A stretch of DNA of 64,000 nt, from assembly GCA_903813345.2 (NCBI GenBank), contig CAIIXF020000005.1:28895375-28959374 (forward strand), written 5' to 3'. The translations under genes and the position numbers were made by a program. Shown one piece after another: positions 12,745 through 62,472 of this stretch. Each line of letters opens with the position of its first letter. Positions within the stretch are counted from its first letter, which is position 1. Under the pieces are notes generated by a model that was given only the letters and a program-made list of their open reading frames with translations, ran no database searches and had not been told where the DNA came from. The stretch comes from Owenia fusiformis (lineage: Eukaryota; Annelida; Polychaeta; Sabellida; Oweniidae).

Positions 12745-15700
12745 TCAGCGAGCCATCTCAGTAACGTCAACTTCCACGTTCATTTTGCTGAGTCTAACTA
12801 CTTCTTGGGACATGTCCTCCAGATTCTGAAACAACAAACACCATTATGTAGCTTTCATGGCCTACCTGTAGGCAGGAAATCCAACATGATTTTAGAATGG
12901 ATATTGACTCGATCACATAATAAATACAAATATTATCTAATTTAAAGAGTAGATGGAAGCGAGGTCTGGCAGAGGGTAACACGATTTATAATGCAATGAA
13001 CACAATTGCAATGAAAATGAAAAATATCAAAAGTTATTTTAAAATGATTAACTTAAAAAAAGAGATTCAGCTTAAACGGAAATTACATGAATAAAATAAT
13101 TACATTTGGTAATTTGTAAAATTTATAAAATTACATTTATAAAATCGAGGTACGATAAAAAGATCAACTAGAACAGTACTGTAGTAAAAACTTGTAAAAA
13201 CCTAAAAATTGGCATATTAAAAAAACAATTGGCATATTAAAAACAACAATGCTAATCAATACAATCTAAGATATAATATTTGATCATATCTTATAAAATA
13301 GTCATTACGATTGAAAATACCTTTTCTAAGTGCATGTTTTTAGTGAGTGTTTCTTCTAACATTCTCTGTAGTTTTCTATTGAGATCTCTCTGGCTTTCTT
13401 CCCCCTTGTCTTTAACAAAGTCTAATACACGCTTTATGGACATCTTCTCAGTCTGAGGTGAGGCAATGTGATCTGAAAGTAATGTACTATAAGTTATTGA
13501 ATGATTTGAAGTGCAATAAAGGATATATTCTGTTCGAGAAATTTTGTATTTTAACGAGACGAAGTCGAGTGCCAATACAGAATATCGAGACATATCGTGT
13601 GATCCTCTGTATTGCTACTGAGATTGTCCCCTCCGTACCAATATTTTCTGTATTGCGACGGAGATGATTAACGGGGACAAACTCAGTAGCAATACGGATT
13701 GGTACAGCACAAGAACTGACCAATCAGAGGGCTTCATTTTACATATCATATGATAAATAAATGAACTGAGGATCCCCCGCCCATAAGTCAAAGGTTGAAT
13801 GACACAACCAGTATGAATACAGTGAAACCTGTATATCCAAACACATTTCTACTCAGATGTCACTACTCAATGTTGTGAACAACATAAACATTTCACACAT
13901 AAATACTGATATATCACTTTCACCACATTTGAGAATTGAATTGAATTAAATCAATCAAACATTTATAACAAGTTTATTACATTATCAGATTATCATAAGG
14001 CAGGTCAGTACTAATGGGCAGTATGGTCGAGTTTTGTGGGTCAAGTGAATATGGTAGAAAGTATCACCCATGCCATCTTTAATTCAGTGTGCTATTTTAC
14101 CTGTTCTGGTTTCCATGGCGTAATGTTGCATCAGAGCCTGTTTTTTCAGTAATTCATCTGCCATTCCTGCAGAGCTCTCCTCAAGGTGATTTATCTGGAA
14201 AGTATAATAAATAGTATTAAATGATAAAGATAAAAAAGTATTAAATACTAAATAAACAAATAGTATATATTAAACTATGAATAGAGATAGAACTGCACAA
14301 GAGTCAACATTGTAAGAGTACATATTAAATAAAGTATCTCATTGCAGATATGGATTGCATCAATCATGCAAAACATGGATTTTAAGTGGACCAACCCTGT
14401 CAGTTGAATACAACTTCAAGTCAAACAGTTGAGACAGTCCTGTGACCTATTGACTTTATGTTAAATAAACCTCAGTGGAACATCTCCCATATGTTTCAGA
14501 GGTACCAAAGATTTTCCATATAATACACAAATCTTAATGTATTTGATTTATGACCTACCCTTTCTTCTAGCTCCCATTTCTCCTGCTGCATCTGGGTCAA
14601 TCTGTTCAATAGGTCTGTGTTCTCCTGGACAAGAGACATAGATGGCGCTCCAGGATCAGACTGAAAGAATAGACATGTGTAATATGTATTGAGTATAATT
14701 AGTATGAATAAAAAAATTAAAAAAACAAGGCATTAAAATGTAAAATATTACCACCTGCCATTTGTTGCAGATACTGACCGCTGAACACTGTCCACAAAAA
14801 AGTATCAATATCTCAGCACTTGTGGTGGTGAGATAATGATCTAATAGTTTACATTCTGTGAGTTAATCAAAGATTGGTGGAGGAAAATGACTTAAAAAAT
14901 GAGCCAATGGACACTATTTTTAATCAGACCACAGATCTTACTGACTGGTTCGTTATTTTCCGACGATCTTAGAAATGCAAATAAACAAATCAAATATTGT
15001 CAGTATGCTTTATTTCGATAAATATAGCAACATACCATCGGAGAGTTGATGGCTTCTCCTGTGTCCCGCCCCGTTCCACTCAATGACATGCTAAATGATG
15101 ACAGAGAGCTACCATCACCATGGAAACGCTCAATAGAGTCTGATGGATGGAGCAATTCTTCTACAGCTGAAATATAATCAAAAAGTGGGATTTAGAAATA
15201 TAACAACTCTGTGATGCATTACATGATATACTCTTTTTAGTGTGAATTTCATATATTAATTTATTTCTCCTTGGACACCCATAATCTACAATATGGTATA
15301 CAACATGTGTATTTTGGCTATCATGCAACTCTCAAAATTGAAATGAGACCTGACTGAATGAAGTCAATGCATCTCAAAAGAGAGATGCTTATTACACCAA
15401 GTTAATATGGGCATACATCATTTTCAGCAAAGCTGAGATTACATCAAATCGCATCAAAAATCTTCAAAGAAAACATGTTGACATGCCTTTGAACCTACAG
15501 TATCTGATAAACCTTGGCCTCTTATTCAAAGGAGACACACCTTTCCAAAATATAGCACTACACCCAAGTATACACACGCAGAGTAATAGTAGTCTTACAT
15601 TATCTCCCGTACAAAACACACCTTTCCTGAAAATAGCACAACACCTATGTATACAATAATAGTCTTACATTGTCTTGACTTGGAGTCTACTGACAGGGCC

Positions 15701-36674: not shown

Positions 36675-36680
36675 TTTATT
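36675..36680 (-). terminator. Candidate polyadenylation signal of the minus AprA-like gene
   Basis: AATAAA on the minus strand, about 50 bases past the TAG at 36732-36734. It is the first canonical hexamer downstream. Confidence 0.5.
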
Positions 36681-36731: not shown

Positions 36732-39700
36732 CTATACCAATGTACCAGTACATTCCTCGAACTGGCAGCCGGGATATGGAAATGTTGGGGGAATAGTAAT
36801 GGCCTCTGTAGTTAAGATGATTGTCTCGAGGTTCTGCGTCAGATACTCTAACTAAAACATGAAAGCACAACCGAGATTTATTTCTATGACTGGAGCCTTA
36901 ATATATAGCAGTTGTTCGTCCATTGCGTTATTACTAAAATTCTAGATATAGTCAAGGAGCAAGCACTGAACTAATATGTTTCGAGAGGGCTGTCCAAATT
37001 CTGTCATGAAGAAGGTATATATTGTGCTTAGGAGAAATTTTTTTTTTTTTACTTAAATGACAAAGTGCATATCCATGAACGAAATTGCAGTAGAAAATCT
37101 AGAAATAAACGTATGTTACCTCGATATAGAAGGCCATATAACCAGCCCCTGGTGGTGGATAAGGATATCTTGCTAACAGAACACCTTCACCCTAAAATCA
37201 TCAAAAATGGGACAAAAATGTTCGAGACCAAAACTAAGAGGTTTATATTTGCATTCAAACTAATACAATGATAAAGCAATTTGATATTTACCAGATCTAA
37301 AGCAATGTCTTCATACCACGTAGCGGGATTGTCTATTACTGATGAACCATTTAGTATCCTTTGTCTGAAGTCACGTCTTGGTCTGCAAATTGACTACGTG
37401 AAAGAAATCATAGTCTTCGGCAATAATTGTCTCGTTTATATAGAGACTTGAAACATTCTCAACGTGTGTAAATGTACTAGTATATGAAAATAATTGTTTT
37501 CATGTCACGGGTAACGACCATAAAAAACATCAGACTAAAACGTACACTTCATAATAGCATAAGCACTATAATTGTTTAAATCACAATACTAGCCAAGTGA
37601 CATTATAAGGCTCAAGTAGAAACTCCTGTTAATCGGAAGACAATATGGTATAATCAGAATAAAATATGGTCAATTGGTATAATTATATGAATGATGAATT
37701 GAAAAAAGTAAAAAAAGTAAAAAGCAACATTAAAATTACTCATGGCACATTACAAAATTATTCGAGCCACAAGATCAAAGTTACTCACGCCACAAGATCT
37801 GTAGTATTTGTCCACCTGACCCTGGTACTCACCGGGGCGTCTACTGTTGTTACAGTTATGCTCCCAACTCTGGATACTGAGTTCTATAATTTATTAATAC
37901 CTATCCTAGATTAATACCAATATAATGCCATCTAACAAGGTCAGGGTCAAATCTATAGGTCAATTCTAGTAGAATTGTCTGCTTTTTATTTCTATCCTTT
38001 CATCATATTTTGTAATTCCATTCAAAGGTATTGAAATACTTTCTCTGCCAAGTAATGAGAAAGCTTTTGACTACCATGATAGTTTTTGCCACCAAACTTG
38101 CTTTCTGTTTAAACATAGCACCCACAACCACTAATGACCTTCCAAGTGATGATTTTCATTAAGGTGAAACAGAAAGAACAATGCTTTTAGATATTGCTGC
38201 TGCGTTTGACAGCCTTCCACGTAACGTACTAAATGCATACGCATTACATATGGCTTCTGGTATGTGGTGTTCATGTCAGTATTAACTTTTTTTTAACATT
38301 TTCTGATTTCATCCCCATAATTGTGTAAATATATCTGTGTTGAATTTCATATATGCGTCTCGCTTTATATAATACGCAGTGCCTCAAGGTTCTATGTTAA
38401 GGCATTTTCTTTTTATTCTCTTCGTTAAAGGTCTCCCCGATTATCTAAATGGGCATTGCTATATTCATTACTTAGTCTCATTAAACATTTTCCTCTTCAA
38501 AATACTCACAAATTCATAAGTATATGTAAATTCAGGAAATGGTATGTTATCAGTTATACAATGGTAGAAGGCGACGAGATTCCAAAATATCATTTTTTCA
38601 AGACCCCCAGCGAACTTCCGCCCAGAGTGCAATTTTACACTGAACGAATGTTGATCCCGGGGATATTTCATACCTCTCTTACATTAAAATTAATTTATAA
38701 TATAAATATACAAATAATTAACAAACATATGCGCAAGACTTCCTGGGGAGGAGTCAGATAGTCGAGGCATATAAAATTAAGGGTGTATAATAAGTTATAG
38801 GTTCATTGGAGTCAAATTTCAAATTTGTTATGATTGTATGTCTTGATAAATATTTTTCTGTAAAATTCTACTACACTACTATATTAATTGAAGCATTTTA
38901 TTGTTTTATTTTATTGCAGCATAAGATTTATGAATTTATGAACATGATGCCATTTCTATTCAACATGACAGAGAATTCATGCCTCTAGACATAAACAAGA
39001 ACTTTTGGAATGGACTAATTTATCGTATAATAGCTCTATTCCATATATAATTACGTATATATGGTATTTAATTCTATACAGATAACCCATATCCAAGAAT
39101 CATTCGAAAAAAAGCAATTCCAAACCATATATAAAGTGTGATTCTATTAGGATAGGAGTTAGAACTTACGTGACCATTTTTGGATTCTTCAGTTCATCCC
39201 AAAAGAGGTTTGTGTCGTCTGGGGGGAAGAATTCATCACCCCCGGCTGCCATGTAGAAAATAGGCATATTGAGACGGTCCCGATAACCTGGGTAAAAAAG
39301 TGAATCACTTGACTTATCAGTTAATTTGGAACATTCGTCCAGAGTTTTTAATAATGGCGGTTGGCATTAGGGGAGAAGAGTCCCACTGAATCAAATGGGA
39401 CTTTGATCCACTTCGGAGATCCTTTGAAATCAGATTTGGCTGACGCACCAAGTACCACGATGTTCCATGAAAAGCTAGCTTACTAATGTTTAATGCAATA
39501 TTTGCTCTCTTAAGTTGGTTTTAAATCCTATCCTTCCGATCCTTCGGTGTCGGTGTTGGTGTAATGTTCTGACTTACTATATGGGTCGATGTGATCAGCC
39601 ATTCGATCCATTAGAGGAGCCCCGATTTGTGTAGTTAGACCCTCTCTCCAGTAGCTGTTGAAAGCAAACGTCCACCCGCCCAATGATCTCCAATATTTCT

Positions 39701-42700
39701 GTAACATCTGACAACAAGGGATCGAGACATATGAGTTACCCTAATAATTCACAACAACCAGAGTATCCGACTTAAACCTACTCTAAGAGCGAGGAGGAAA
39801 ATTCTTAATAAATGGAGTATAGTTGGTTTGGCAGCATTTTCAGTTAGAGGGAAGTCTTGGATGAAAATTCAACCTAGGTGATAGCTTCACAGAGTGGTAC
39901 ATAATTCTTTTTTTTCAGGGGTTAGTCCCCCACCCCCCAAAAACACCCCACCCCCGGAAAATAATTTTTTCATTCTCAATTATTTTAGATATCTTGATGT
40001 TTGTAAGTTACATACATAGACATTATATATATGAATCATTTGCAAAATAAATAATGCCAATCACTCCTACAGAATTTGGAAAATACTACAAAGTATGTAC
40101 CCCAGGGGGCAAATTCGTGACCCATTTTCTTACTATTTAGAGACACACTTTTCAATCAGACACTGGAAGACATTGAAAAATTTCATGTGAAGTGCCCAGT
40201 AGCAGGGCTATAAGCCCTGAAAGGTTCAAACTAATTGAATTAGTAGGAGCCGAGAAAAAAATTGTTGATTTTTTGAAAATTTTGACATTTTTGAGAGGGT
40301 TGATTTTGTGTATGACTATAGCTGATGCCTATGGTTTCCAGATCTATCCCTCTTTGATGATAAATATGGTTTTGAAGTATGGAACTAAGATGTAAAAAAT
40401 AATTAAAATGGGTTTAAAGGAAGTTTCATGTTTTAAACAAGTTCAAAATTCCAAGAATTGTACAATATCAGGTCTGAATTTACAAATTTTACGTAAGACC
40501 TTGGACGAGCCTTAGATTTTTTACATCTGTCCCCCTTTGATGATATTTATGGCTTTGTAGTATGGAACTAAGATGTACAAAATAATTTAGATGGGTTTAA
40601 AGAAGGTTTAAGAATTTTAACAAGTTCAAAATTTGAAGAATTGTACAATATCAGGTCTGAATTTACGAATTTCAGGTAAGACCTTGGATGAGCCTTATAT
40701 TTTTTACATTCGTCCCTCTTTGATGATATGTATGGTTTTGTAGTGTGAAACTAATTAGTAAAAAATAATTAAGATGGATTTGAAGAAAGTTTAAGGATTT
40801 TAAATGAGTCCAAAATTTGAAGAATTGTACAATATCAGGTCTGAATTTATGAATTTCAGGTATGACCTTGGATGACCCTTATGTCTTTTAAATCCTTCCC
40901 TCTTTGATGGTATTTATGGTTTTATAGTGTGGAACTAAGATGTAAAATATAATTTAGATGAATTCTAAGAAGGTTTAAGGATTTTTAACAAGTTCAAAAT
41001 TTGAAGAATTGTACAATATCAGGTCTGAATTTACGAATTTCAGGTAAGACCTTGGATGGCTTTTATGTTTTTACATCTGTCACTCTTTGATGATATGTAT
41101 TGTTTTGTAGTGTGGAACTAAGATGTAAAAAATGGTTTAGATGGTTTTGAAGAGTGTTTAGGGATTGTAATGAGTCCAAAATTTGAAGAATTGTACAATA
41201 TCAGGTCTGAATTCTCGAATTTCAGGTATGACCTTGGACGACTCTTTTGTTTTTTACATCTGTTCCTCTTTGATGATATTTATGGTTTTATAGTGTGAAA
41301 CTAAGATGTAAAATATAATTTAGATGAATTTTAAGAGATTTAAGGATTTTAACAACTTCCAAATTTGAAAAATTGTACAATATCAGGTCTGAATTTACGA
41401 ATTTCAGGTAAGACCTTGGATGGCTCTTATGTTTTACATCTGTCACTCTTTGATGATATGTATTGTTTTGTAATGTGGAACTAAGATGTTAAAAATGATT
41501 AAGATAGTTTTGAAGAGTGTTAAGGGATTTTAATGAGTCCAAAATTTAAAGAATTGTACAATATCAGGTCTGAATTTTCGAATTATAGGTATGACCTTGG
41601 ACGACTCTTTTATTTTTTACATCTGTCCCTCTTTAATGACAGTTATAGTTTTATGGTATGGAACTAAGATGTAAAATATAGTTTAGATGAATTTTAAGAA
41701 GGTTTAAGGATTCTAACAAGTTCAAAATTTGAAGAATTGTACAATATCAGGTCTGAATTTGCAAATTTTAGGTAAGATCTTGGATGAGCCTTATATTTTT
41801 TTTACACCTATCACTCTTTGATGATATGTATGGTTTTGTAGTGTGGAACTAAGATGTAGAAAATAATTTAGATGCATTTTAAGAAGGTTTAAGGATTTTA
41901 ATTTGAAGAATTGTTCAATATCAGGTCTGCAATAAATGAATTTCAGGTATACCCTTGTTTAGCCCATATGATTTTAACACCTATCCCCTTTCCATGATTT
42001 GGTTTAGTTGTGTGGAAATATGTATAATTTACATCGATTTTAAAGAAGCTTGACATTTTAAACAAGTTCAAAATCTTGGCGTATTGTATAATATCAGATC
42101 TGAAATTAAAGAATTTCAAGTATAATCTTGGTTAGCCCATATGATTTTAACACCTATCCCCTTTTCATGATATATTTGGTTTAGTTGTGGAAATATGTAT
42201 AACATAATTTACATCGATTTTAAAGAAGCTTAAAATTTTAAACAAGTTCAAAATCTTAGCGTATTGTACAATATCAGATCTAAAATTAATGAATTTAAAG
42301 TATAACCTTGCTTCGCCCTTATATTTTTAACATCTATCCTTTTTTGATGATATATATGATTAAAACATAATCAAGATGGGTTTTAAAGAAGTTTAAGGTT
42401 TTAAATAAGTTCAAATTTTCACAAATTGTACAATATCAGAGCTGATATTAATGAATATTGGGTATTTAGGTGAGCCTTATGTTTTTTACATCTATCCCTT
42501 TTTGATGACATATATGCTTTAGTAGTGTTGAACTAAGATGTTAAACAAAATTTAGACAGGTTTTAAAGAAGCTTAAGGTTTAAACAATATAAAAAATTGA
42601 AGAATTGTATAATAACAGGTCTGGAATTTATATATTTTAGGTATAACTGTGAATGGCCCTTATTCACTTTTTACATATATCTCTCTATGATAACATATAT

Positions 42701-45700
42701 GGTTTTGTAGTATGAAACTAAGATGTAAAACATAATTTAGATGGGTTTTAAGGAGGTTTAAGGTTTAAACCTGTTCAAAACTTGACAAATTGTACAATAT
42801 CATATCTTCTGACATTAACGAATTTCAGGTATGTATCTCTCTATGATGATATATATGGTTTAGTAGTATGGAAGTTTTAAGGAAGTTTAAAGGCAGAATC
42901 AGATCTATGGGTGTGACAAAATTACAAGCAACATGTACAGTTCATGTACCAATCTTTTCCTTACAATCTCAAATACAATATCTCCAAAAAGATTCACGAT
43001 GTGTTAAGTTTAAAGGCAGAATCAGATCCAACATGTACAATTCATGTACCAATCTATTCCTTACAATCTCAAATACAATATCTCCAAAAAGATTCACGAT
43101 GTGTTAAGTTTAAAGGCAGAATCAGATCCAACATGTACAATTCATGTACCAATCTATTCCTTACAATCTCAAATACAATATCTCCAAAAAGATTCACAAT
43201 GTGTTAAAAATTGATGAAGTAATAATGGATTCAAAAAGCAAAAATGGGTGAAAAATGTTTAAATTCTCCCAAAATAATAAGAATGGTAACCATTCTTATA
43301 GAAAAATAATACATTATTGTAGAAATCTTTAGTTTTCCTGAAATAAAGTGTGCACTTTGGGGATTATTAGCAAATAGACATGAAAAGGAATTACATAAGC
43401 CAGAAATATTCAAAAAGGTCAATGTGCAGTATGGCAAGTGATTTTAGACGGTCATATATTTCACCATGAGTACTTTCTGGGCATAAATACAGTGGTTTAA
43501 ATACATGTCAACATTTTTTTCTAAATGTTTAGAGCCAACCAAGGTTATACTTGAAATGTAGTGTTAATTGCCGAATTAATATTGTACAATGCGCCAAGAT
43601 TTTGAACATGTGAAAATCCTTAAACCTTCTTAAAATCCATCTTAATTGTTTTTTTACATCTTTTTTACATCTTAGTTCTATCCTACAAAACCATACATAT
43701 CTTCAAAGAGGGACAAATGTAAACAATATATGGCTCACCAAAGGTCTTACCTGAAATTCGTAAATTCAGACCGGATATTATACAATTTTTCAAATTTTGA
43801 ACATGTGAAAATCCTTAAACCTTCTTAAAATCCATCTTAATTGTTTTTTTACATCTTAGTTCCACACTACAATACCATACATATCTTCAAAGAGGGACAA
43901 ATGTAAACAATATATGGCTCACCAAAGGTCTTACCTGAAATTCGTAAATTCAGACCGGATATTATACAATTTTTCAAATTTTGAACTTGTTAAAATCCTT
44001 AAAATCCTTAAACATTCTTAAAATTCATCTAAATTATATTTTACATTTTAGTTTGTTACTATAAAAGCATAAATATCATTAAAGAGGGACAGATATTAAA
44101 AACATAAGAGTCATCCAAGGTCATACCTTAAATTCGTAAATTCAGACCTGATATTGTACAATTCTTCAAATTTTGGACTCATTAAATTCATTAAACCTTC
44201 TTCAACACCATCTAGGTTATTTCTTACATATTAGTTTCACACTACAAAACCATAAATAGCATCAAAGAGGGACAGATGTGAAAAATATATGGCTCACCAA
44301 AGGTCTTACCTGAAATTCGTAAATTCAGACCTGATATTGTACAATTCTTCAAATTTTGAACTTGTTAAAATCCTCAAACCTTCTTAAAAACTATCTAAAT
44401 TATTTTGTACATTTTAGTTCCACACTACAAAGCCATAAATATCATCAAAGGGGGACAGATGTAAAAAATCTAAGGCTCATCCAAGGTCTTACGTAAAATT
44501 TGTAAATTCAGACCTGATATTGTACAATTCTTGGAATTTGGAACTTGTTTAAAACATGAAACTTCCTTAAAACCCATTTTAATTATTTTTTACATCTTAG
44601 TTCCATACTTCAAAACCATATTTATCATCAAAGATTGATAGATCTGGAAACCATAGGCATCAGCTATAGTCATACACAAAATCACCCCTCTCAAAAATGT
44701 CAAATTTTTCAAAAAATCAACAATTTTTTTCTCGGCTCCTACTAATTCAATTAGTTTGAACCTTTCAGGGCTTATAGCCCTGCTACTGGGCACTTCACAT
44801 GAAATTTTTCAATGTCTTCCAGTGTCTGATTGAAAAGTGAGTCTCTAAATAGTAAGAAAATGGGTCACGAATTTGCCCCCTGGGGTACATACTTTGTAGT
44901 ATTTTCCAAATTCTGTAGGAGTGATTGGCATTATTTATTTTGCAAATGATTCATATATATAATGTCTATGTATGTAACTTACATACATCAAGATATCTAA
45001 AATTATTGAGAATGAAAAAATTATTTTCCGGGGGTGGGGTGTTTTTGGGGGGTGGGGGGCTAACCCCTGAAAAAAAAGAATTATGTACCACTCTGTGAAG
45101 CTATCACCTAGGTAGAATTTTCATCCAAGACTTCCCTCTAACTGAAAATGCTGCCAAACCAACTATACTCCATTTATTAAGAATTTTCCTCCTCGCTCTT
45201 AGAGTAACCCCCTAAATCTTTGTTGACAAGTGACATATTATTTCTTTTCTTCATTCGAGGCTTTCAAAAAATTTAACTTTCACATACGAATACCCTTGAT
45301 TAATTAATCTACTCACAGGTTTAAAGTTCATGAATGATAGAACCATTGGTGCAATTCCTACGACTCGCCTGTCTACAGCGCCAACCATCCATGTTGTCCA
45401 ACCACGCTGAAACAAATGATAGTGGACACGTGTGTATTGTTTTTTGGGCCCACCCTGTTGTATATACAGCTTTAGATAAAGGCGAGACTCTGATAAATCA
45501 GAATGGATTAAATACGATTTGCTTGTTCTTACCTTGGATTCACCAGCGGGAATGAACTTGTCAATGTTGAAGCGGTTGTCCTGCTGATTGGTAAATGAAG
45601 CAACTGTGTCAAAGGCACGTACGACAGCCTGATTAAAATAAATATTAAAGACACAACTGAATGTACAACTTACAATGTTTTATAACAAACGTAGGAATCA

Positions 45701-48700
45701 AAGATGCAAACTATGGACAAAGGATAAGAGAATGATATGAGTGATATGAGAATGACAGCGATGAAACGCATCGGAATAATTTTGAGGAGCAGGGAATAAC
45801 AGTGATGACTTATATGGACATTTTTCAGCTGTAATGAAAGTTGTGTTATGAAAATCTTGCTAACCTTAATCATCGGCATTCTGAGAAGTATTTCTGGATC
45901 TGTACCATTTTCTTCCATGACAAATCTTCGCCAAGTCCAGCCAATTATTCTGTCTTCCCATCGTCTTGTTTGAGTCTCATCAGCCTTATGATTATAATGA
46001 TATCATTAAGATTTAGCACTTTGGAATTAAAAAAGTCACATATATCACACTTTAATAACATTGGGTAAGACATATAAGACAAAGTGGTTTAAACTTTATA
46101 TGGGGCTTAAACATTAAAGGTAGGAATCAGATCAGATCAGACACAATGGCTTACAGCTGTAGATCCTCCCAAATAATACAGATGGTAACCATGAATGATA
46201 ATTATAGAAAAATAATTACATTTTTGTAAAAAATTAGTTTTCCTAAAGTAAAGTATTTACTTTTGGGATTTTGAGAAAAGAGGAGGGTAAAAACGATATG
46301 TGATGCAACGTACTGTAAAGACTATTGGTTGGTTGGGAATCTGTTTCAAGTATGCAGCCACTCCACGCATCTCTGATGCAAAAGCTGCAGAGGCGTTCAC
46401 TCTCCAGTCAGTCTCTGGTGGAGGACTGCAAGGGAGAATGAATAACGGGTATATATTGGTACATGTTATTTTAGAAGGACTTGCTGTCTTTTACAATATA
46501 AAAAAGATATTATGTCGATTTTAGATTTTCAAAGGTCTAAAGTTTATGAATTGAAGGTGTAACAACCGGGGGTCACACTCGCCTAGCCTGACGTTACATA
46601 AAATAAGAGATGTTACAAATATACTTGAAATTTCTGTGGTAGCGTATATGTGGCCTTGACTAGGGAGTGTGTTGGTTGTTATGAATTTTAATCTGCTCTA
46701 CTGACAACTAACTGTCACACTGATCTCAATAATAACATAAAATATGATTTGAATTAAAATATATATATTACGTAATCAACTATAAGTATGAAATATGTAC
46801 AATGAGTTTTGACAATGAAACTAAGGTCTTTCAGATGGTATATCAAACAAGATACTGTAAATACCTAACAAAACAGTTTTCAATCTTATTACCAATCTGA
46901 CCTTATATAATACACACAACTACTACATGTAGATGCTCCACAACACTAGTGCCACCTTTTGGCAAATGTTCAAACTGATAAAAGTACACACATGGCTATG
47001 AATATCTATCTTCAACTAAAACCTTGCAAAATTAGTATGCTACCCTAAGCTCGTAATATTCACAGAACAAAATGAGACATAATTCTGAATATATCTGATT
47101 GGAATAACGATAGCAACTAAAAGAAATGATGTAGAATCTCAAAGTTTGCGAAATTAGGTCACTTGACTTAGCCGTCTATCTCTGTTCAATACTAACTTCC
47201 TTACCCTATTTAACTTGATCTATCTTATCCTAGGCCATTTACTGTTAACATAATCATATCCTATCCTATCTTAGGACCTTAAGTCCTACATTTAAGACGA
47301 TTTTAATCCACACGATATGAAAAAGACAATCTCCTAAATTCTCCACGTGCGCCTCCTAATGCTTTTATAAGACGTGCTCTGATTGGCTAATCTAAACTAG
47401 GCTTAAGTTTTTGGCACCAAATTCAAAAGTTATAAAAGTTTAAAAGTCCTTGCTAACCTTACAATAAATTGAAATACAAATATTTACATTAACAGATATA
47501 TGAAATAATTAAACTGGGCATGAAATATAAAAAAGTAACAACCCAGGGTTGTTACACTGCCCCCTTATTTGAAAAATAAATCGTCCTCGATTTACGCTTG
47601 AACAAAAGTATAAAATGGCTACATAGAGGACTTAATACATATATCATGTGGCACAATACTTATATATGAGTCACAAGCTCAGTGAAAATTACATAAGACA
47701 CAATGTCTCAAAACAAAGTAGTAGTATAAAATGCTTTACACAAATGCTGTGTGACATACCATTAATCAACATACCATCAGATTATATTAAAGTAGCAACT
47801 GTACATGTTAAACCTGTACTTTATGTTTATAGGGACAAAATATACATGTTAATACAATACAAAAATATATGCAAAATACTGGATCACTACATTGTCAAAG
47901 ATTAACAGTCTCTGAGCTCAGTCTCTGGCTGAATTGTCACTGATGTAGATGTCCTCTTCATAATGTTAATATATGGTACAGCGACAGTTATTAAAGTAAG
48001 TTTCATCCCAATGATGGAAGGCGTGCACTCCTTCCAATATCAGACCAGCTGATAGATCATCGGTCAAAAATGCAATACTGTCTAAGTGTAGATGTCACAT
48101 ACAGGTACAGTATATACACTATGATGATTGATGACATGAGCTGAGAACGAAGATGATGCACAGATTGATGATCCATATTGTTGAAATTATTCAGCTACAT
48201 ATATTTATATGGGCAGTGTAATCAACATACACTTGCCTTCACATGTTATCACTAATGGTTACGCAATCCAATGGCGAGATACAGCACATTTTCGGGATTT
48301 TTCAGCATAATCCATGATGACTTCGATTTAGTAGTTATGTCAGGATGCTTTTAACGGACAGTTCCTATATATATGTGTAGCAGAAGCACAGTTGTAGCAT
48401 AAGTGTTTCTTACGTTTATATGAATGGGACCTATCTTTACAGTTCACGTTATAGTCAGGTACATGTAATATACAGTTATCATCAATATTTGATTGTTCAT
48501 TCTTAGCAGAAGGGGTCCTTTCAATGGCTTTGTTTAAAGCTGGCGGATTCCTCTTTGAATCAACTCTCCCTCTTGTAACATGCTGCATTTGGTCATTGTC
48601 ATTTTTCATGTGTTTGTAGCTTACTGCAGCATTACATTGCGTAGAATGTTCAGTTTCGATCCCATTGTCAGATATAACAGGCAATTGTTCCATGGTTTCT

Positions 48701-51488: not shown

Positions 51489-52055
51489 TGCAACCGTCGT
51501 GTACACAACTACAACATTGGACAAATCATAACTCAAAAGAATGTCAATTTTTGTGGGAATATTTTTTTCATTTTACAGATGTTTGGTTTTGATTTAATGA
51601 TATTGTAGTTATAGCACATGAATGTATATTTGCACCCTTTAAATTTCTTAGTAATTTTGATATCTTGCATATGAAATGGATCATGAGTTCTAAAAAGCTA
51701 TCACGATATGTCACAATACTACAGTATAAGGGTTCTCGGACAAAATATGACAAATTATTCTTCTGAATTTGGATATTTCCACATCTAAATCTTCAATACT
51801 TCTATATTATATCAAATATCTCATTTCGTTTTTCAAAAATTAAATTTTGATTATAAGGGACACATGGGCATGTATCCCCTTTATTAATATAATGTAACAA
51901 GGCCTCATTATAGACCTACGCTGATGATTTGATAAACGCTGTGAAATTATTTGTACAATACACATGATTTTTTGTCATCTAAAATACTGGTTAATGTTTA
52001 AAAACGAATTCTCATTTATCTCAAGTTATTAACAATCTAAATCATACATTCAACA
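51489..52055. promoter_or_regulatory. Shared intergenic region of the divergent AprA-like genes
   Basis: 567 bp between the two start codons, AT-rich, with no other gene. It must hold both 5' UTRs and promoters unless untranslated exons lie elsewhere. No convincing TATA box, initiator or paired site was recognised, so co-regulation is inferred from geometry only. Confidence 0.5.
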
Positions 52056-55000
52056 ATGTTTCATGTGCTGGTATTGGGACTCTGCATCGTGGGGTGTACA
52101 GCAGTTGCAAATCACCCGGTGAGTAACGTTCTCTTGTTCTGCATATCGCGCAATCTTGAGAAAACCCTTCATCCATCCTTTGTCTTCACCCATTGAGTCA
52201 ATGACATAACTAATCATCGTTCATGGGGGGCTGTGTCGACCTAGTGACGCTCACTTTAGTTTTAATATGCTTTCCTGCTTTTCCAACCTGTAGAGAAGTG
52301 TTTCTGTAATCCCTTTTTAAGTCACCACCAAAAAACTGGTAACATATTGTTGTGGCCTCCGTTTTTGTGACGTTTGTGGTTGGCGATCAGCGGTTGGCGT
52401 CTATAACAAATGGTGGTGACATTTTGCATGTAAATGCCTTTTATATGTTTTTGTAGTGGTCATCATGGACTCCGCTGGATGACTATGTTCACAGACCTGA
52501 CTCCAGTTATTCTTGGAGAGAGGTGGCATCATACAGTAAACCAGGGGCACAAGTCTATGTTGTCAACATGACGTCTCAAATCTGGAAGGATGGTAACAAG
52601 CATATTCCTCGAACTGACTTTTAAATACTCTCGTAAAAAATGTCAGCGATCTGATCGAATTGTCCCGTTGAGTTCATCATTTAATACATCAAGGCTGATC
52701 TCTTGCTTGACTTCAAACGAGACGTGCCTTGGAACTTCAAAATTTAGAATAGCATTTTTGCATTCCTTTTCTGTATACGTACACCTGTTTCAGATTTATT
52801 TCTGAAATATCTCTTCTACAGCTACAGTTACAACACGATCTCTCTGGTGGCATTTTCTGGTGATTGCTCTCCCAACAAATGTAGAGCACTGGGATGCGTC
52901 GTTCGTCTACATCAGCAATGGAAATAACGAAGATATTAAGTAGGTCAAACCAAAACAACTCATTTATAGTAATAAAACAAAACCGGTTAAAACGAATTGG
53001 TCTGAATTTCCTACAACCAAACGCTAGTCGTTTTATATGTTTAAAAACAATATTTTATAGTGACAAAACCATTTCAAACAAATCCTGACTATCTTAGTTT
53101 GTATTCGCGAATGCAACTAACGCCTGTCGGCTACCGGATTAACTTAATATTTCATGACCTACTCATTTAAATATAAATGAAATAGTGGCAGGTACTATTC
53201 ATATTTAAAAGAGTTGGCCATAAAATATCAAGTAAATCCGGTAGCCGACAGGCGTTAGTTGCATTTGCGAATACAAGCCTAGATCCTAACGTTGGTCCGT
53301 TCAAGCCTTCAATCAACCTATCCTAGCACGGGACTGATGCGCAAGTTTTTCACTAGATTATGAGTTAATCAACGAAATATTGCGATCACATGCAAAATTC
53401 CTTCCAATTCAATTTCCGTATCTTTCTTCTACTGTTGCACTTGTTACATTTATCCCATTGCCATAGCCCACCACATGAGAACCAATACAGGGTGAACGCG
53501 TCTTCCATGTATGCAGCTGCTATGGGGGCTCCTGTTGCATATCTCATGCATATTCCGAACCAACATATGTATTTTGTGGTACGTGATTCTTAATGCTATA
53601 TATTAACTTAGAGTTCCACTATTCTTATATAACATTTGTAATATTCCTTACCGGCAGCTCCACCATTCACATATACTATTTGCATTATTCCAAACCGGCG
53701 GCTCCACCACTCGCAAATAATAATTGTAATATTCCTAACCGGCAGCTCTACCACTCGCATATAATGATTGTAATATTCGTAACCGGCAGCTCCACCATTC
53801 ACATATAATGATTGTAATATTCCTAACCGGCAGCTCCACCATTCACATATAATATTTTTGGTATTATTTCAAACCGATGGTTCTACCACTCGCATATAAC
53901 GATTGTAATATTCCTAAGCAGCAGCTCCGCCATTCACATATACTTTTTTTGGTATTATTTCAAACGGGCGGCTCCACCACTCGCATATAATGATTGTAAT
54001 ATTCCTAACCGGCAGCTCCACCACTTTCATATAATGATTGTAATATCCCTAACCGGCAGCGCCACCATTTACATAATATTTGAAATATTCATTACCAGGA
54101 GTTCCGCCGTTCACATATAACATTTGTAATGTTTCTAACCGGCAGCTCCACCTTTCACATAGTTTATTTTTAACATTTCTGCAGCTCCGCAGTTTGCATA
54201 TTAGATTTGACAGAGTTTCAGAAATATACCTTTCCAAATTACAGCATCATTCTCATAAAATACGCAACCGTTTATTAAAGCGCTATTCCATCACCCACTC
54301 CTAAACATCTCATTTCTATTCTATTTTTATATCTATATTTTTATAACAATACAATATAGGATGACCCGGACCAGATACGTCGGCGTGAAGATGGTATCAC
54401 TGCTTGGACGTGGATGCAATGGCTGACTGTAAATAATGCCACAGATCCAGATCTTCTCATTAGGCTACCTATGATAAAGGTAACCCTTAACATTAGCTAT
54501 TAGTCATCAAACCCAGGATGTCTTTCAATACATTTCCAATCTTCTGTTAAGAATCAGCATCCTCCGAAAGCAGGCGTCCAGAGTCCAAAGCCTCTATCTT
54601 CCAAGGAGGAAAAGACGTAATGAATGATGTCTAGAGCCCTGCGTCTGGAGGATGAAAATCAGGAACCCTGCATAAACCTAAATGGACGGATAATTTCTAA
54701 TAGTGTAATGCTAATTACTAATCCCGATATAATCATGCTTTACAAAAAGGTTACTTGAATTCATCATAAGATGATATGATTGTTTCGGTGACGTGTTACA
54801 GGCAACGGTTCGGGCTTTCGACACAGTTGCGGCGTTCGCCAAGGAGAAAGACAGTCGCTACAACATTGATAAGTTCATGCCAGCTGGAGAATCTAAGGTA
54901 CCTTTGTTACAAATAACATTATCAGGTCTCCTAGACTTAACCGGGGACTTAACGCTAGGTGGAAGTCGAGGAGAACACGGCCGGATCATTCGAATTAAGA

Positions 55001-58000
55001 AACAAAAATCTAAACAACCCAGATTTCGCAATTTTGAGACAATGTAGAAAACACGAACAGCATGAACTTCATGCATGAACTTACTGTTAACTCCTCCAAA
55101 GAATCACGGATTCTAGTTGTTAGTCTACGTTGTAAGAAAGAAGATGCGATCATTTCGATGAGTATCAGAATGGATGCTATGATATATCTGGATATGATTT
55201 AAGCGTGGTTGGACGACGTGGATGGTAGGAGCGGTAGACAGGAGGGTGTTTGCCATGACGCCTATGGTGCTCTCTATTCTTAATTTCAAACAGGTATCCT
55301 ACAATGTAATGTATTCGACATGTTTTGTATCTATAGAGGTCTTTTCCACTATCAATGGGCAAATCAAACTTCATTTTGAAAATATAGTCAATATAAAGGG
55401 TAACCAAAATGGACCTTAAATATACCTTGTAGATAACTAGAATATACCTTCTAAACTATAAAGATCATCAATTGAATTGGGTCCAAAGTTTTGGGGACTT
55501 TTTACAAAGGATCAGAATAAGAAGTTATCACTACACGTGTAACATTTTACCAAAATATTAAATGAGGGATCCCCCACACACACAAACCGATTTGTCCATT
55601 TAGGTCCTAATGAAACACTGGCAATCACTTGGGGGATGGACTTTTGCATTCGGAGATTTCTACACCGAAGGTGTAACTGCTCACTTCGATAACCCGAATC
55701 TTCAACTCATGGCAGATGTAGTGGACCCCTTCAGTAAGCGGACGCTCTCATGCTAATACAAATATTCCGTGGATGTCATAAGCTTTTGCATTTTGGGCAT
55801 ATTTTCATGTGGCTCATTTTGTTTATACACGTTACTCACAGGCCCAGCTCACAGTGTCCCGAAGGTATACTATACATGTATCACATTGATGTCAAAACCA
55901 ACCAGAAGAATATCATTCTTCTGTAGCTTCTATTAAAATTATGCCAGAAGTGTGATATACCATTTTAAAGATAATCTCTCGATTAAAGGTTACAGGCACA
56001 GATTGGATATGCCAAAGATGTACATACAAGGTGCTAGTGATGAATTCTTCCAATGCGATGACTCCTCATACTTCTACCCTGAGATGAAACAACCATTCTT
56101 CCTTGTGTAAGGATTATCTATTACTTCATATGTTATCTGCTGCTAAAATTGAGCAACCGTTTTTGTGTTTTTGGGAGAACAAGCAGAACTGGTGTTCGGG
56201 ATGAATTTTAATTTGTTTCATGAAGTGATGTAATATTATTTAGAGTCAATCAATACTGATTTTGACTATGTTCAATACACGTCGATTGTCGATACATCGT
56301 TTTATCACACGATCTGTAAAATGTAGCCTTTTGATTGGTCAGTTCTTGTGCTGTACCAATCTGTATTGCTACTGAGATTGTCCCCATTGATCATCTCCGT
56401 CGCAATACAGAAAATATTGGTACGGAGGGGGCATTCTCAGTAGCAATACAGCGGATTACACGATAAAAACGTTACAGAATGATTTGAAGTGCAATACAGG
56501 ATATATTCTGCTCTCGATATTGTGTATTGGCGACTCGACTTCATCTCGTTCCAATACGGAATTTCTCGAGCAGAATATATCCTGTATTGCACTTCAAATC
56601 ATTCAATAACTTATACATGTTATAACCGCGCTGATATAACGTTTAAATAAAGATGGCTATGAATTTATGCGTTAGGTACTTGAATCAAGGGCGTTACAAT
56701 ACCCGGGAATTTATCGGTTCGTCCAGTACTTGTTTGTGATAGCGCCCTCTGTAGGTCACTGTGCTTATAGCCTACAGTAATACGGGGTAGGATATCGGGA
56801 ATTCGGTCAGTTTCTATCCGTCGATTTCGCTATGAATTGAAGCAAGTGTGACCACTTTATCCACTTAAACAATTTGATAATTCATTAAATCTTTAAACAA
56901 AATCGATAAACATGTTATACACTTCCTATCTCCTTAGAAATTAGCATGTATTTATGGATTGTGTTTTCGAACAAGGCTCGACCCACCCCAATAGGGAAAT
57001 CCTTATGCTAATTAGTATGACGTCATATTTTCCTGGGGAATCCTAGATTTCAAAGCCTCAGTCTGTTATTGTGTCAAATGTAAACGCTCTTGGGACGCTC
57101 TTTTGCAGACAGAAAATTGACAGATTAGCTTTTAACTTTCAGCTTTGATGTTAAAATATTCTGTATTTCTACCGGACTTCTTGCTGAATATCATATAATG
57201 TTATAACTTGATTTGGACCATTGCTTGATTGATCATTCTGAAATTTTGATTGTGATTCATGATTGATTGGCAAGAAAAAAGAATTCCTATTGTTTTCCAG
57301 CGAAGTCAAAATGTTACAGCATGAGTTATAATGTCGAGTTTGCATCATGTTAAATTCTGCTAGTGATTAGAAGTCCATGCACAAGCATACACATAAGAGA
57401 CAAACACACCCAGGCTCCAGGCCGTGGATGGAAATATAAAACTATTTAAGGCACAAACTGGTATTAATAGACCGATATGTAGTGTCTGCCATGTATTGAA
57501 GGTAAACCAATCTGTATTATTAATGTTTCTTCTATCAATACATGGATTGTGCAATAGAAAAGCAATGGCACAATCAAAAATGTGCATATCAATCGTGAAT
57601 ATCTCTCGGTTCAAAGCATAGGCTAAGGGTTAAGTAATAGTAAGCTGTATATAAAAGAGACAGGTAAACAATTAGGATTGAAATTTTTTTCAAAAACTTG
57701 CCGTCTTGGTACGAGTTCTCCTTACTGGTATCGAGTCGTACCACCAAATCTCCCAAGAATCCTCTCCAAAGTGTTTTCGAAACGTATATTGTTGAATATT
57801 TCAAATCTATATCCTAACTCTTCGATAAGACTGCATAAAAAACACCAACTGTACGAACCTGCAATTGCCCGGCAAGTTGAAACTTCCGGATACATTGAAA
57901 GATTGGATCTTGTAACGATTGATTTGATTGGTTGTAAGTTTACAATTCCAATAAAAATGTTAATTTCACCATTTAAATTGGGTTTAATAAGATATTATAT

Positions 58001-61000
58001 GAAACAGATGTTTTGATAAATAATTATTAAGTACACCTTTTATAGTTTTGTACACTTTAATTGATTGTTATTTCTAGAATATGAATTACATTTTAGAGAA
58101 CCAGATAGGTGTCACTGGCGGCGGTTAGCAGGAACCAATCAAATTCCTTGTTTCAAACTTCCATTTAACACGGAAATCCGGGTAACTTGCCAGGCAATTG
58201 TAGGTTTTCAGAATATCTCGCCTCAAGACAGCTTTATTCACTCTATATCACTTGAATGGGGTTGATTCATAGGTAAGAATTGCGAACTATCAATTTTGGA
58301 TCAACTCTGCATTGTTTTTTGAAAATTATACACAAATAATGTTAAAATCGCCATGTTAACAAGTGGCCTAAATCCTAGTTGTTCACCTGTCTCTTCTATA
58401 TACGGCTTACTATTACTTAACCCTTAGCCTATGGTTCAAAGCTTATTTCCAACAGAATCGTGTCAAAATATGTGTCTGAGTAACAGTTATACATTATAAG
58501 ATCGCAAACTCTTACCAATTATCAGCCGAATGGCTCATTTTCAACGAAATGTCCTTAAGACAACAGCCCTGGGTCGCGCCTGAGACCAAAAACTACTTCA
58601 AATAGCCCTCCCCTAATTATATTCGATAATCACATTTATGCGTGCGCGCGCAGCTCATCCAATGAACGAAACGCCACTTCCCGCTGAAATCACCGGGTAT
58701 TGATCTTTCCCTTGCTTGAATCGCCATTTCAGGGAAATGTTTTGCAAGGATATTTTAGAGAGAGCAATTCATGGGCGGAATAACAGTAATGTTATCCAAG
58801 ATAATAGGATAAGTAAAAGGATCTATGTGTGTTCTGCCATCATTTAAATGAATAATGCATCTAAAACCTTTGGATTTGAAACGGTTGCTTTACAATAATT
58901 TTGCTTATTTATTGTTTTTTGTAGGAATTTGGAAAACACAGGACACAACTTAAGGGGTCACGATGCAAGGATCTTCTCCAACAATGTTGCCTTCTTCCAC
59001 AATGCCCTTGCTGTATGTTAAAACACTATGGATGGGGGCATTAGTTTTGGGAACATTATATAGGCCTATAACCAACGAGCACCATCCTGGTTCATCAGAC
59101 ACTGAATGAATTGACCCTGTATTGTTTGGGGGTCTATCAAAATGCTTAAAATTTTTATTCAAATCGATAAACGCCAATGACTCAAAAATCTAGATATAGA
59201 CATTTTGACCCTCGTTAATATTTTCTTTGATAACATACATGGTGCTATTATTTCTTCCAGGGGCGGCCCTGGCCGAGCATCGAATGGGAAATTCAAAATG
59301 TAAGACATATCCTTCTTTCGCATCACAAATCGCTGATAAATATAAATAAAAGCAAAATGGTAACTGTGTCTTCGCGAATCACATCACATCACATGGCGTA
59401 TCTATTTCTGTGATTTTCAAAGATTAGATAAATTCGTAAATTTTGTTCAAGGATGATGAATTGAGGTTGGGTTCCATAACAGTTCGAACCTTGGAGGTTC
59501 CATCGAGTATTCGTGTCTGGTATTCTATAACAACACAACATGTTCAGTAAGAATTTTTTCAGTCACATTTTTATGTCTCGTTTATGTGTCACATATTTTT
59601 AATGTATATATTTTTATTATTCTATTATATTGGAATTTATGATGATGAGATAATAATAGTAATCTTTTGGAGGTCAGACTATTACTCGTTCACATACAAG
59701 AATTATAACCTTCTTAATAGGGAGGTTGTTACACGTTTTAAGAGAACCTGTGCGTGAGTGTGTAATATTTCGACCCCCGGGGATTACTGTCCCGCTTTCA
59801 ATTCATTTTCTCAGGGATCTAATTACATATATTTTCCGTATACTTTTATACTTTAATGATTTTTCTTAGGGGTAGGCGGGACTTCAGACAGCGAATCCTA
59901 TCATATGAAGGAGAGACACCTCAAGTGGTGAACAATGAAGGACAAATGTGGATTCAGGACATACCAGATGATATCGTAATACTAATTAAGATTTTAGAAA
60001 TTTAAAGTGGAAATAGGACCATGTTTTTAAGGTCTGGATCAGTCTAGTTTACTTATTTCTTTCGGCCTAAAAGTTCGTCCAGTTTTACATTATCCATACA
60101 CCATTTTATGTAGTTGTTTTTGTTTCAGGGTGGTGGTGAGTATAGGGCCAGATACAGCTATCCTGAAACGGGATTCCTTGCATTCTTCATCGAGGTAAAG
60201 ATATTTCATCATGGGAACCTAAGGGTAGGGGACACGCGGCAAGACCGAGCCAGTGGATCCATTTTGTTTCACATGCACTCGTGTTATCTATTTTGTTCGC
60301 GCATACTCATACATCATATTGTCACCAAGTCAGAAAGTGCCATAACCCTTTACCAGTTTGACTTTCAATATGAAAACTTCATACACTCCCCTCCATAAGT
60401 TTGGCAACCTGAGCTCCCCCATTGAACTACGTGTTAAAGCCTCTTTACGTTTGAATTTTTATTTGCCCTGCGATCGAAATTACTTATAATATTGATGGAA
60501 ACGTAAATTGATTTTAATTCCAATACCTCCAAATTTTCCCATTTTTTTCCCTCAATAGGTTGAAATTGATGATAACACGAGTGCGTGGGAAACAAAATGG
60601 ATCCACTGGCTCCGTCTTTAACACGTAGTTCAATGTGGGAGCTAAGGTTGCCAAACTTATGGTGGGGAGTGTAACTTGGTAATTCAAGATGAGATAGTGC
60701 CGCGCATATAGGGATTTCCAATAATTTTAAGATCAGAGAAATTTTATACGATACCTAATGTATCAGACAGATATACAATTGTGATGATGGAAACATTTTT
60801 AAAATTCCCCATCCCAGGATCCTTGTGTTAACATTTTATTTTGTTCACAAGTATTTGTTTATTTTTCAAGTATGATTTTAGTCATAAAAAATAACGAAAG
60901 ACTCACAGCCCCATGCACTAAGATTAATCCATTCACTTGTTTTTCTTTTTCAGGTAAATTTTCTCCTGCAAAATCTTGAGGAGATTCGATTTGATACCGA

Positions 61001-61073
61001 GGCTGATATTGTGCCACCTATCTTTCCCTTTGCGAAATGTTCTGGTAGTGGGTGTATTGGACTACCTTTATAA
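52056..61073 (+). CDS. PhoPQ-activated pathogenicity-related (AprA-like) secreted protein, plus copy
   Basis: Exons: 52056-52118, 52457-52592, 52822-52939, 53467-53578, 54360-54479, 54802-54897, 55204-55293, 55604-55733, 55989-56106, 58925-59012, 59261-59299, 59452-59546, 59870-59975, 60129-60194, 60954-61073. This gives 498 aa plus stop in one frame. A short signal peptide (MFHVLVLGLCIVGCTAVA) is followed by NHP and PLDDYVHRPDSSYSW. The presumed catalytic triad was located on the model before exon 4 was extended by 8 residues: Ser in GESKRGW (about 222), Asp in GASDEFF (about 314) and His in TGHNLRG (about 343). Sequons include NMTS and NATD. The C-terminus has KCSGSGC, a CX4C pair. Exons 2-9 have the same lengths as in the minus copy (136, 118, 112, 120, 96, 90, 130, 118), proving common origin. 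The protein should be secreted; substrate unknown. Confidence 0.92.
53099..53276. mobile_element. 178-bp hairpin MITE (AprA-like intron 3)
   Basis: TTGTATTCGCGAATGCAACT at the left is answered by AGTTGCATTTGCGAATACAA at the right. The arms continue through CGCCTGTCGGCTACCGGATT/AATCCGGTAGCCGACAGGCG. The stem is about 58 bp with few mismatches; no coding capacity. Confidence 0.85.
53610..54200. repeat. Minisatellite, ~43-bp unit, about 13 copies (AprA-like intron 4)
   Basis: ACCGGCAGCTCCACCATTCA recurs every 42-44 bases, alternating with AATAATGATTGTAATATTCC. Copies vary by point changes such as CGGCGG, CGATGG and CAGCAG. The open frames on both strands here are translations of the array. Confidence 0.92.
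56312..56613. mobile_element. Hairpin MITE with CAATAC repeats, copy 2 (AprA-like intron 9)
   Basis: Opposite orientation to the copy at 13494-13745. It contains a very long hairpin, 56483-56606, with AATGATTTGAAGTGCAATAC on the left and GTATTGCACTTCAAATCATT on the right. A second inverted pair uses TGTATTGCTACTGAGA and TCTCAGTAGCAATACA. Non-coding. Confidence 0.85.
57616..58437. mobile_element. Element with 66-bp inverted ends enclosing an open frame (AprA-like intron 9)
   Basis: ATAGGCTAAGGGTTAAGTAA at the left end is answered by TTACTTAACCCTTAGCCTAT at the right. The match runs about 66 bp on each side with about seven differences. The interior is about 690 bp and carries the coding-like region listed separately. 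It could be a non-autonomous DNA transposon or a captured gene fragment. Confidence 0.6.
57678..58265 (+). CDS. Hypothetical protein inside an inverted-repeat element
   Basis: A 112-codon frame at 57678-58016 and a 66-codon frame at 58065-58265 may be two exons. The junction G|GTTGTAAG near 57931 to TTTCTAG near 58077 would join ...VTIDLIG to EYELHFREPDRCHWRR in frame. The donor is weak; the better GTAAGT donor three bases on creates a stop. The product would be basic, with no signal peptide, ending in PFNTEIRVTCQAIVGFQNIS. Not recognised. It lies inside the 66-bp inverted repeats, so it may belong to the element or be a captured fragment. Confidence 0.3.
60240..60675. mobile_element. Palindromic element with two nested inverted pairs (AprA-like intron 14)
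   Basis: GAGCCAGTGGATCCATTTTG at 60247 is answered by CAAAATGGATCCACTGGCTC at 60595. CACTCCCCTCCATAAGTTTG at 60375 is answered by CAAACTTATGGTGGGGAGTG at 60653. A similar end, ACACTCCACTACATAAGTTT, occurs at 50714 in the minus gene. The interleaved order suggests two elements, or one rearranged copy. Confidence 0.6.
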
Positions 61074-61164: not shown

Positions 61165-61170
61165 AATAAA
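61165..61170 (+). terminator. Candidate polyadenylation signal of the plus AprA-like gene
   Basis: AATAAA about 92 bases after the TAA at 61071-61073; the first canonical hexamer downstream. Confidence 0.55.
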
Positions 61171-61659: not shown

Positions 61660-61895
61660 CTCAGGGGAGGATCTGGGAACAAACAGGGGGGACCCAAATT
61701 TCAGGTCAGAAAAAATTGGGCCCCTAAAACCGAAAAGTGGGCCCAAATTTTGAAACTTTGAAGCCCATTTTCTTCAAAATTTGGCCCAAAATTGAAATAA
61801 TAAGGCCCAGTAATGACCCAAAAGGACCACTTTTTGGGGCCTTTATTTGCCCCAATATTTTTTGGGCCCACCCAAGGGGGGGAGGGCCCCCCCAA
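61660..61895. repeat. Imperfect palindrome rich in GGGCCC/TTGGGCC
   Basis: Blocks such as AATTGGGCCCCTAAAACCG, GTGGGCCCAAATTTTGAA, AATTTGGCCCAAAATTG and TTTTTTGGGCCCACCCAAGG occur in both orientations, and the right end is G/C-run rich. The open frames on both strands are reflections of this palindrome. Confidence 0.5.
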
Positions 61896-62386
61896 GTCCG
61901 CCAGTGAAACCAATACCATACTCAAATCGTGAAATAGATGAACTATAACAGCTAAATACAATTTTCTGTTTTCTTACTCAACTTTAGTCAGAAAACGGAC
62001 GTTCATATGTATATAAGATCGCCTACAGTACATAACAGGTATATGACAGTTGTTCAAATTATCCTAAAAAATTCTAATACTAATCCAGAAAATGTATGCA
62101 TGTATGTATAAGTTCCTGTTTTATTGCATATGCTGCATTCTAATGATTTCTTTACAATTCAAGAAATTCTTCACTGTATAAACAGACTCTTTAAAAGTTG
62201 AAAACTTTTAAAAGAACTCAAAGTTACCGCCAAAAAGTTGAAAGTCACGTGACGTTACCATAGTGGCTCCTTCAGTGGTCACATGATAAACAAAATTGGT
62301 AGTAGTAGTAAACGAAACGAGGTAAAGAAAACAATGAATTCCAATACATTTTAACGCAGATAGAGGACTCAAATACACCAGTAACC

Positions 62387-62472
62387 ATGGACAATAGACA
62401 CAGGAGACCGAACTCTACAGTTCGAGAGATGTTGAAGGAGTATTGGCCCGAAAATGATACAGAAAACCAAGA
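62387..62472 (+). CDS. First coding exon of an unrecognised gene continuing beyond the window (partial)
   Basis: ATG at 62387 after an in-context leader (CCAGTAACC), then 28 codons (MDNRHRRPNSTVREM, LKEYWPENDTENQE). It ends AAGA|GTAAGT, a strong donor, with phase 2. It is basic, then acidic, and hydrophilic. No following exon could be assigned in the remaining 1.5 kb, so function is unknown. Short open frames downstream (62612-62890) have no splice support. Confidence 0.5.

Follow-up and report, generated by a model that had tools for sequence, protein, structure and literature searches.

Dictyostelium AprA is reported to act as a secreted signal by which growth is halted and cells are repelled, and the members of its family, MEROPS S82, which equals the Pfam family PF10142, are described as barely characterised (PMC11878206). 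A stretch of 64,000 nucleotides (64 kb) from the intron-rich genome of the annelid Owenia fusiformis, referred to here as the window, harbours two genes of this family placed head to head, gene A and gene B, and raises the question of what such a pair does in an animal. With intact predicted catalytic residues and a short shared upstream region, this clean pair would be convenient for asking whether animal AprA-like proteins act as enzymes, as signals or as both, and if the two genes are co-regulated. The sequence itself offers specialists little surprise; the pair adds ordinary, well-preserved members to a family that has been studied little and is already known in marine invertebrates.

Gene A is encoded on the minus strand, with a whole coding span at 36732..51488, and comprises 14 exons for a protein of 513 amino acids (51411-51488, 50845-50980, 50586-50703, 46314-46425, 45865-45984, 45533-45628, 45317-45406, 39578-39707, 39170-39287, 38510-38675, 37789-37883, 37292-37382, 37120-37191, and 36732-36851). 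Gene B is encoded on the plus strand at 52056..61073, and its 15 exons correspond to a protein of 498 amino acids (52056-52118, 52457-52592, 52822-52939, 53467-53578, 54360-54479, 54802-54897, 55204-55293, 55604-55733, 55989-56106, 58925-59012, 59261-59299, 59452-59546, 59870-59975, 60129-60194, and 60954-61073). The joining of exons was based on splice sites, reading frame, and the homology between A and B. All introns are of the GT-AG type (13/13 in gene A, 14/14 in gene B), and both frames are open, without internal stop; the two complete divergent genes of the preliminary description could be rebuilt from the sequence. The nearest in-frame stop upstream of the start codon lies 18 bases away in gene B and 87 bases away in gene A, with no in-frame ATG between; barring an exon further upstream, the ATGs used here are therefore the first start codons. 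A recent LTR element lies in intron 3 of gene A (4160 nt), and intron 7 (5609 nt) harbours a long inverted repeat.

The eight consecutive internal exons that had been described as identical in length and phase are exons 2-9, which measure 136, 118, 112, 120, 96, 90, 130, and 118 nt in both genes, with equal phases. Comparison of the exon chains showed that exon 10 of gene A (38510..38675, minus strand, 166 nt) is a single exon where gene B has two, exons 10 (58925-59012) and 11 (59261-59299) of 88 and 39 nt (58925..59299, plus strand), so gene B possesses one intron more than gene A. In the alignment, about 13 residues directly after the conserved His are missing in B relative to A. A candidate exon near 38955-38990, similar to the His loop of A, was rejected by eye, because its frame is closed by a stop shortly upstream and it offers no entry in the required phase. 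The exon following this region (A 11, B 12) measures 95 nt in both genes, the next two are unequal (91 nt in A exon 12 versus 106 nt in B exon 13, 72 nt in A exon 13 versus 66 nt in B exon 14), and the last exon, stop included, has 120 nt in both. The two proteins share 48.7% identity over a BLASTP alignment of 507 columns. In the 64-kb window, tblastn detected no further copies of the family (three rows outside both genes, E 1.4 to 8.9), and no tRNA genes were found. Seven window ORFs were compared with Pfam; three gave below-cut-off matches only and four gave none.

The two start codons are separated by 567 bp with 28% G+C (51489..52055), the distance given in the preliminary description. 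This spacing makes a shared promoter for A and B possible. In the titles obtained by one general literature search, no head-to-head pairs of the AprA/S82 family were named. Candidate poly(A) signals (AATAAA) were found 52 bases past the stop of gene A (36675..36680, minus strand) and 92 bases past the stop of gene B (61165..61170, plus strand). A second AATAAA is present downstream of gene A at 36490, and on the 3' side of gene B there is an earlier ATTAAA at 61153, with three more signals after the AATAAA.

Both proteins match PF10142 (PhoPQ_related) along the entire profile (1-367 of 367), protein A at residues 33-426 with 303.1 bits (E 2.8e-90) and protein B at residues 28-408 with 309.4 bits (E 3.4e-92), where the curated cut-off is 20.3 bits. 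Membership in the AprA/PqaA kind had been proposed with the absence of a PF10142 match as the named contrary outcome; that outcome did not occur, and we consider the assignment of A and B to PF10142 (MEROPS S82, AprA/PqaA) practically certain. PF10142 is the sole Pfam family in A and B at E<=0.001, and at the same threshold neither a Peptidase_S9 domain (PF00326), a propeller, nor carbohydrate esterase family 7 was matched in either protein. NCBIfam gave no match above cut-off for A, B or the protein of the Bryobacter homologue L001 (one match of B had E 0.12), the best PDB match of protein B with phmmer was meaningless (E 0.39), and the viral contigs searched with protein B contained no relative. 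The motifs LDDYV, GESKRGWTTW, and DEFF and the C-terminal CX4C (C503/C508 in A, C488/C493 in B), all pointed out earlier, are each present in both proteins. The idea that the first three are AprA-specific signalling motifs was dropped; all of them lie inside the PF10142 match, and the last two include residues found in 45/45 aligned bacterial proteins.

Regarding the age of the pair, the base agrees at 30/104 fourfold-degenerate sites in codons for a shared amino acid, versus 28.5 expected from base composition. The NG86 estimates for exons 2-9 are a dN of 0.34 and a saturated dS of 3.5. A blastn comparison between the window halves recovered three exon stretches and nothing intergenic. Saturated synonymous sites and nucleotide similarity limited to exon stretches indicate that the split of A and B is old, and the two genes are old copies under purifying selection. 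A recent inverted duplication was rejected, as the fourfold sites are at chance level and there is no nucleotide match outside exons. The common descent of A and B contained in the earlier claim of an inverted duplication stands; the orientation may date from the split or from a later rearrangement, and the head-to-head order may stem from either inverted duplication or a later inversion.

To place the pair among bacterial proteins, we used five bacterial relatives obtained in one search of genome contigs, from Bryobacter (L001), Planctomycetota (L002 and L003), and Armatimonadota (L004 and L005). The PF10142 profile was then run on draws of genomes belonging to the same phyla as three of the five relatives, and matches at E<=0.001, some of them marginal, were present in 40/149 (G002), 7/99 (G001), and 45/61 genomes (G004). 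Only the best-scoring places were taken as loci, which biases the alignment towards good members. Of the 55 loci, 51 yielded an ORF resembling A or B (about 24-35% identity, blastp). After removal of five duplicates and one fragment, 45 bacterial rows were aligned with A and B, including near-copies (five pairs more than 80% identical, one pair 100% after rounding). A maximum-likelihood tree of these 47 rows places A and B as sisters (100/100); the branch of A (0.57) is longer than that of B (0.37).

In this tree the pair is joined by 12 bacterial rows (14-row set, 96/85) and then by 13 (15-row set, 100/100), all from the Acidobacteriota and Planctomycetota draws and apart from the other 32 rows. 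Such a grouping would fit an acquisition of the animal family from bacteria of these two kinds by horizontal transfer, with introns gained later, which we consider possible at about one chance in a few. Nonetheless, the tree is rooted at the midpoint, A and B are its sole eukaryotic rows, the stem leading to the pair is long (1.42), and the letter composition of A was flagged as unlike the alignment, so the position of the pair is compatible with both transfer and vertical descent. The family is also reported as annotated in Dictyostelium and other protists, which argues against transfer.

The N-terminus is hydrophobic in both proteins, and this hydropathy, together with its position, supports the signal peptides described before and suggests that A and B are secreted. 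Protein A has six N-glycosylation sequons and protein B has three, and three of these positions are common to both (A63/B58, A121/B116, and A174/B169); at those three columns a sequon occurs in 1, 1, and 0 of the 45 bacterial rows. The earlier mention of a glycosylated pair is plausible in view of these common sequons, rare in bacteria, and both proteins are probably N-glycosylated.

Three residues stand out as candidates for the active site, namely the Ser of G-x-SKRGWT, the first Asp of DEFF, and a His approximately 30 residues further on, each present in 45/45 bacterial rows and in both copies, the criterion being conservation in this sample and not a published definition of the family. The predicted nucleophile is Ser219 in A (exon 6, 45536..45538, minus strand) and Ser214 in B (exon 6, 54892..54894, plus strand), both in GESKRG, with the codon checked for A. 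The predicted catalytic Asp is Asp311 in A (exon 9, 39235..39237, minus strand, codon checked) and Asp306 in B (exon 9, 56039..56041, plus strand), and the predicted catalytic His is His342 in A, within PRDQH (exon 10, 38648..38650, minus strand, codon checked), and His335 in B, within ENTGH (exon 10, 58944..58946, plus strand). By conservation, GESKRG and DEFF are thus predicted active-site motifs, a useful addition to the preliminary description, in which both had been named.

The fold was approached with an AlphaFold2 model of the bacterial homologue L001, not of A or B, built with five sequences (pLDDT 72.6, pTM 0.78). In this model the Ser follows strand E204-211, the Asp follows E296-298, and the His follows E324-326; the order of strands and helices is that of an alpha/beta hydrolase, and a C-terminal beta region then follows. 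The pLDDT falls below 50 at 238-245, 302-315, and 329-337, around the Asp after strand 6, the catalytic Asp, and the His. Foldseek matched the L001 model to 743 PDB chains at E<=0.001, belonging to the alpha/beta-hydrolase superfamily. Among the best 50 of these 743, the first 21 rows are acetyl(xylan) esterases (rank 1 with E 1.3e-10), after which other esterases are mixed with S9 peptidases, including FAP-alpha at rank 41. The TM-scores of the acetyl(xylan) esterase rows are 0.36-0.43 on the query and 0.50-0.60 on the target, so low that the closest fold says little on the substrate.

Several relatives of A and B have been measured in marine invertebrates, under assignments that are annotation names and not functional tests. 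In Mytilus haemocytes a relative is reported to increase 11.64-fold with LPS (PMC7773633), in Mercenaria a relative is higher in haemolymph than in extrapallial fluid (PMC8902148), and in Gigantidas a relative increases in bacteriocytes under starvation (PMC11299980). A relative in Apostichopus is reported to increase 3.57-fold with heat (PMC4783884), and in slow-growing Apostichopus a relative is reduced (PMC5513535), a poor fit to a simple growth repressor. Among the literature matches listed, a coverage with subscription papers mostly outside it, no animal member of the family was the subject of a functional study. The gene pair, the family and, by hydropathy, secretion were correctly read in the preliminary description, whereas two of its points hold in part only: the mode of duplication, and the statement that such animal proteins are little described, which agrees with the lack of functional animal studies among those matches and not with the naming and measurement of AprA-like proteins in several invertebrates.

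On balance, we lean towards the reading of A and B as old S82 paralogues that encode secreted, probably glycosylated, catalytically competent alpha/beta hydrolases, likely involved in extracellular growth, stress or immune control. The statement as a whole is held well below the family assignment because of its part on function. A signal peptide would lead each protein, probably N-glycosylated, out of the cell, and the protein would combine an alpha/beta-hydrolase fold with a beta domain at its C-terminal end. The Ser of GESKRG would attack the substrate, assisted by the first Asp of DEFF and by the His in the loop that follows; given this intact Ser/Asp/His set, A and B are both expected to be active serine hydrolases, either peptidases or esterases. 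By analogy with AprA in Dictyostelium, they would most likely act outside the cell, and are perhaps AprA-like regulators. The reported increases of animal relatives with LPS, starvation, and heat (PMC7773633, PMC11299980, PMC4783884) agree with this reading.

Some residues nearly fixed in bacteria are altered in the pair. The Asp after strand 6 (44/45 bacterial rows) is Ser in both A and B, a Trp (44/45) is Asp in both, and a Gly (45/45) has given way to Thr in A and to Asn in B, these three positions being conserved in this bacterial sample, not part of a published definition, and not used to deny membership. Close to the His, the Asn three residues before it (45/45) is Arg in A, and the Pro next to that Asn position (44/45) is Glu in B. 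Any of these replacements could weaken or alter the activity of A and B, and together they speak against a simple carry-over of the bacterial activity. One or both copies might then be secreted ligands without catalysis that bind a cell-surface receptor, with the hydrolase fold as a scaffold, in line with these changes around the active site in both copies and with the report that AprA uses the GPCR GrlH (PMC5821085). We regard this as rather unlikely. Loss of catalysis usually lets at least one catalytic residue drift, but neither A nor B has lost the Ser, the Asp, or the His. Besides, AprA itself is reported with protease activity (PMC8326840).

Similarly improbable, to about the same degree, is that A and B are feeding or defence enzymes acting on microbial or dietary material, like carbohydrate esterases, and not regulators. 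The acetyl(xylan) esterases that lead the best 50 Foldseek rows of the L001 model point in this direction, as do the LPS response of the mussel relative (PMC7773633) and the report that a second Dictyostelium member sits on secreted multilamellar bodies, which are made when the amoebae digest bacteria (PMC4920372). However, the low TM-scores mean that the substrate is barely informed by the closest fold, and MEROPS is reported to place S82 among peptidases (PMC11878206).

A more elaborate version of the preferred reading, in which A and B are regulatory hydrolases, would make them a two-part extracellular control unit. Both would be co-made from one 567-bp promoter, and their differing active-site changes (Arg in A and Glu in B near the His, beside the shared Asp-to-Ser and Trp-to-Asp) would give complementary or opposed specificities, so that a secreted hydrolase and its partner jointly restrain growth or movement of invertebrate immune cells; this is speculative, and we give it little credence. 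Also remote is an artefact of the gene model or a pseudogene, with A having ceased to yield a full-length protein, as the two large element-filled introns of A (LTR element in intron 3, long inverted repeat in intron 7) and its longer branch could suggest, because A has no stop or frame break, 13/13 of its introns are GT-AG, its dN is well below dS, and its catalytic residues are kept.

Compared with known systems, A and B share the Ser, Asp, and His with the bacterial PF10142 proteins of the PqaA kind, including L001-L005, in which several nearly fixed residues differ from those of the pair. The bacterial proteins are single open frames, whereas A and B are split by introns and have shared sequons and a terminal CX4C. 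The closest solved folds to the L001 model among the matches listed are acetyl xylan esterases of carbohydrate esterase family 7 (for example PDB 3fcy, 1vlq, and 7xmj), with 14-20% identity in the rows listed. Dipeptidyl peptidase IV (DPPIV) and other S9 peptidases probably have the superfamily in common with the family of A and B, and possess in addition an N-terminal propeller; S9 rows rank behind the acetyl esterases, and DPPIV is not among the best 50 of the 743 Foldseek rows. According to a review, AprA is a chemorepellent that is secreted and shows protease activity like that of DPPIV, to which its predicted structure is also said to be similar (PMC8326840). With esterases ranking before S9 peptidases, this resemblance may reflect a shared core and not a special kinship. 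Dictyostelium AprA is secreted and belongs by report to the same Pfam family as A and B (PMC11878206), a comparison made at the level of the reported family; the window, by contrast, carries a divergent gene pair. AprA is reported to repress growth, to repel cells, and to use a receptor, roles that are putative for A and B. Relatives from mussel, clam, and sea cucumber have been named 'AprA-like'.

Intron 3 of gene A, the minus-strand gene for a PF10142 protein predicted to be a secreted hydrolase, harbours an LTR retroelement, with direct repeats at positions 46557-47556 and 49464-50463 that are identical at 1000 of 1000 bases. The approximately 1.9-kb interior between the repeats encodes one 311-aa ORF (48340-49275, minus strand), and the listing of ORFs longer than 100 aa revealed no other in this interior. 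By eye, the ORF product is gag-like, with a CCHC-like knuckle at its end; the Pfam search returned only a sub-cut-off match (E 0.06). Visual inspection also revealed a 4-base duplication, AAGG, on both sides of the element, which looks recent and non-autonomous.

Gene B, the head-to-head paralogue of gene A, carries a 44/91-bp tandem array in intron 4 (53615-54161). Past gene B, an ATG-led open stretch on the plus strand, ending in a GTAAGT donor (62387-62472), is possibly the first exon of an additional gene. The region 61690-61910 contains many GGGCCC/CCCAA words, as noted by eye, and reads like a dispersed repeat.

Scattered ORFs of coiled-coil appearance, as judged by eye, are present on the minus strand at 13291-13614, 20410-20730, and 26048-26350, and are perhaps exons of a single neighbouring gene. 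The Pfam search found no match for the first ORF, and only sub-cut-off matches for the other two, the best being KIF21A_4th (E 2e-4). An array of approximately 17 copies of the 17-bp unit AACACCCCTCTCTAGTG occupies 28799-29099.

Intron 7 of gene A contains a 5.4-kb element (39779-45206). A separate 100-bp tandem repeat is located in its middle (42929-43207; 2.8 copies, 98% matches). The element possesses inverted arms of 1025 nt, which are 96% complementary, and 183-bp tandem repeats are present both within the arms and in the space between them. This unit is a mobile element, of the foldback type or satellite-carrying.
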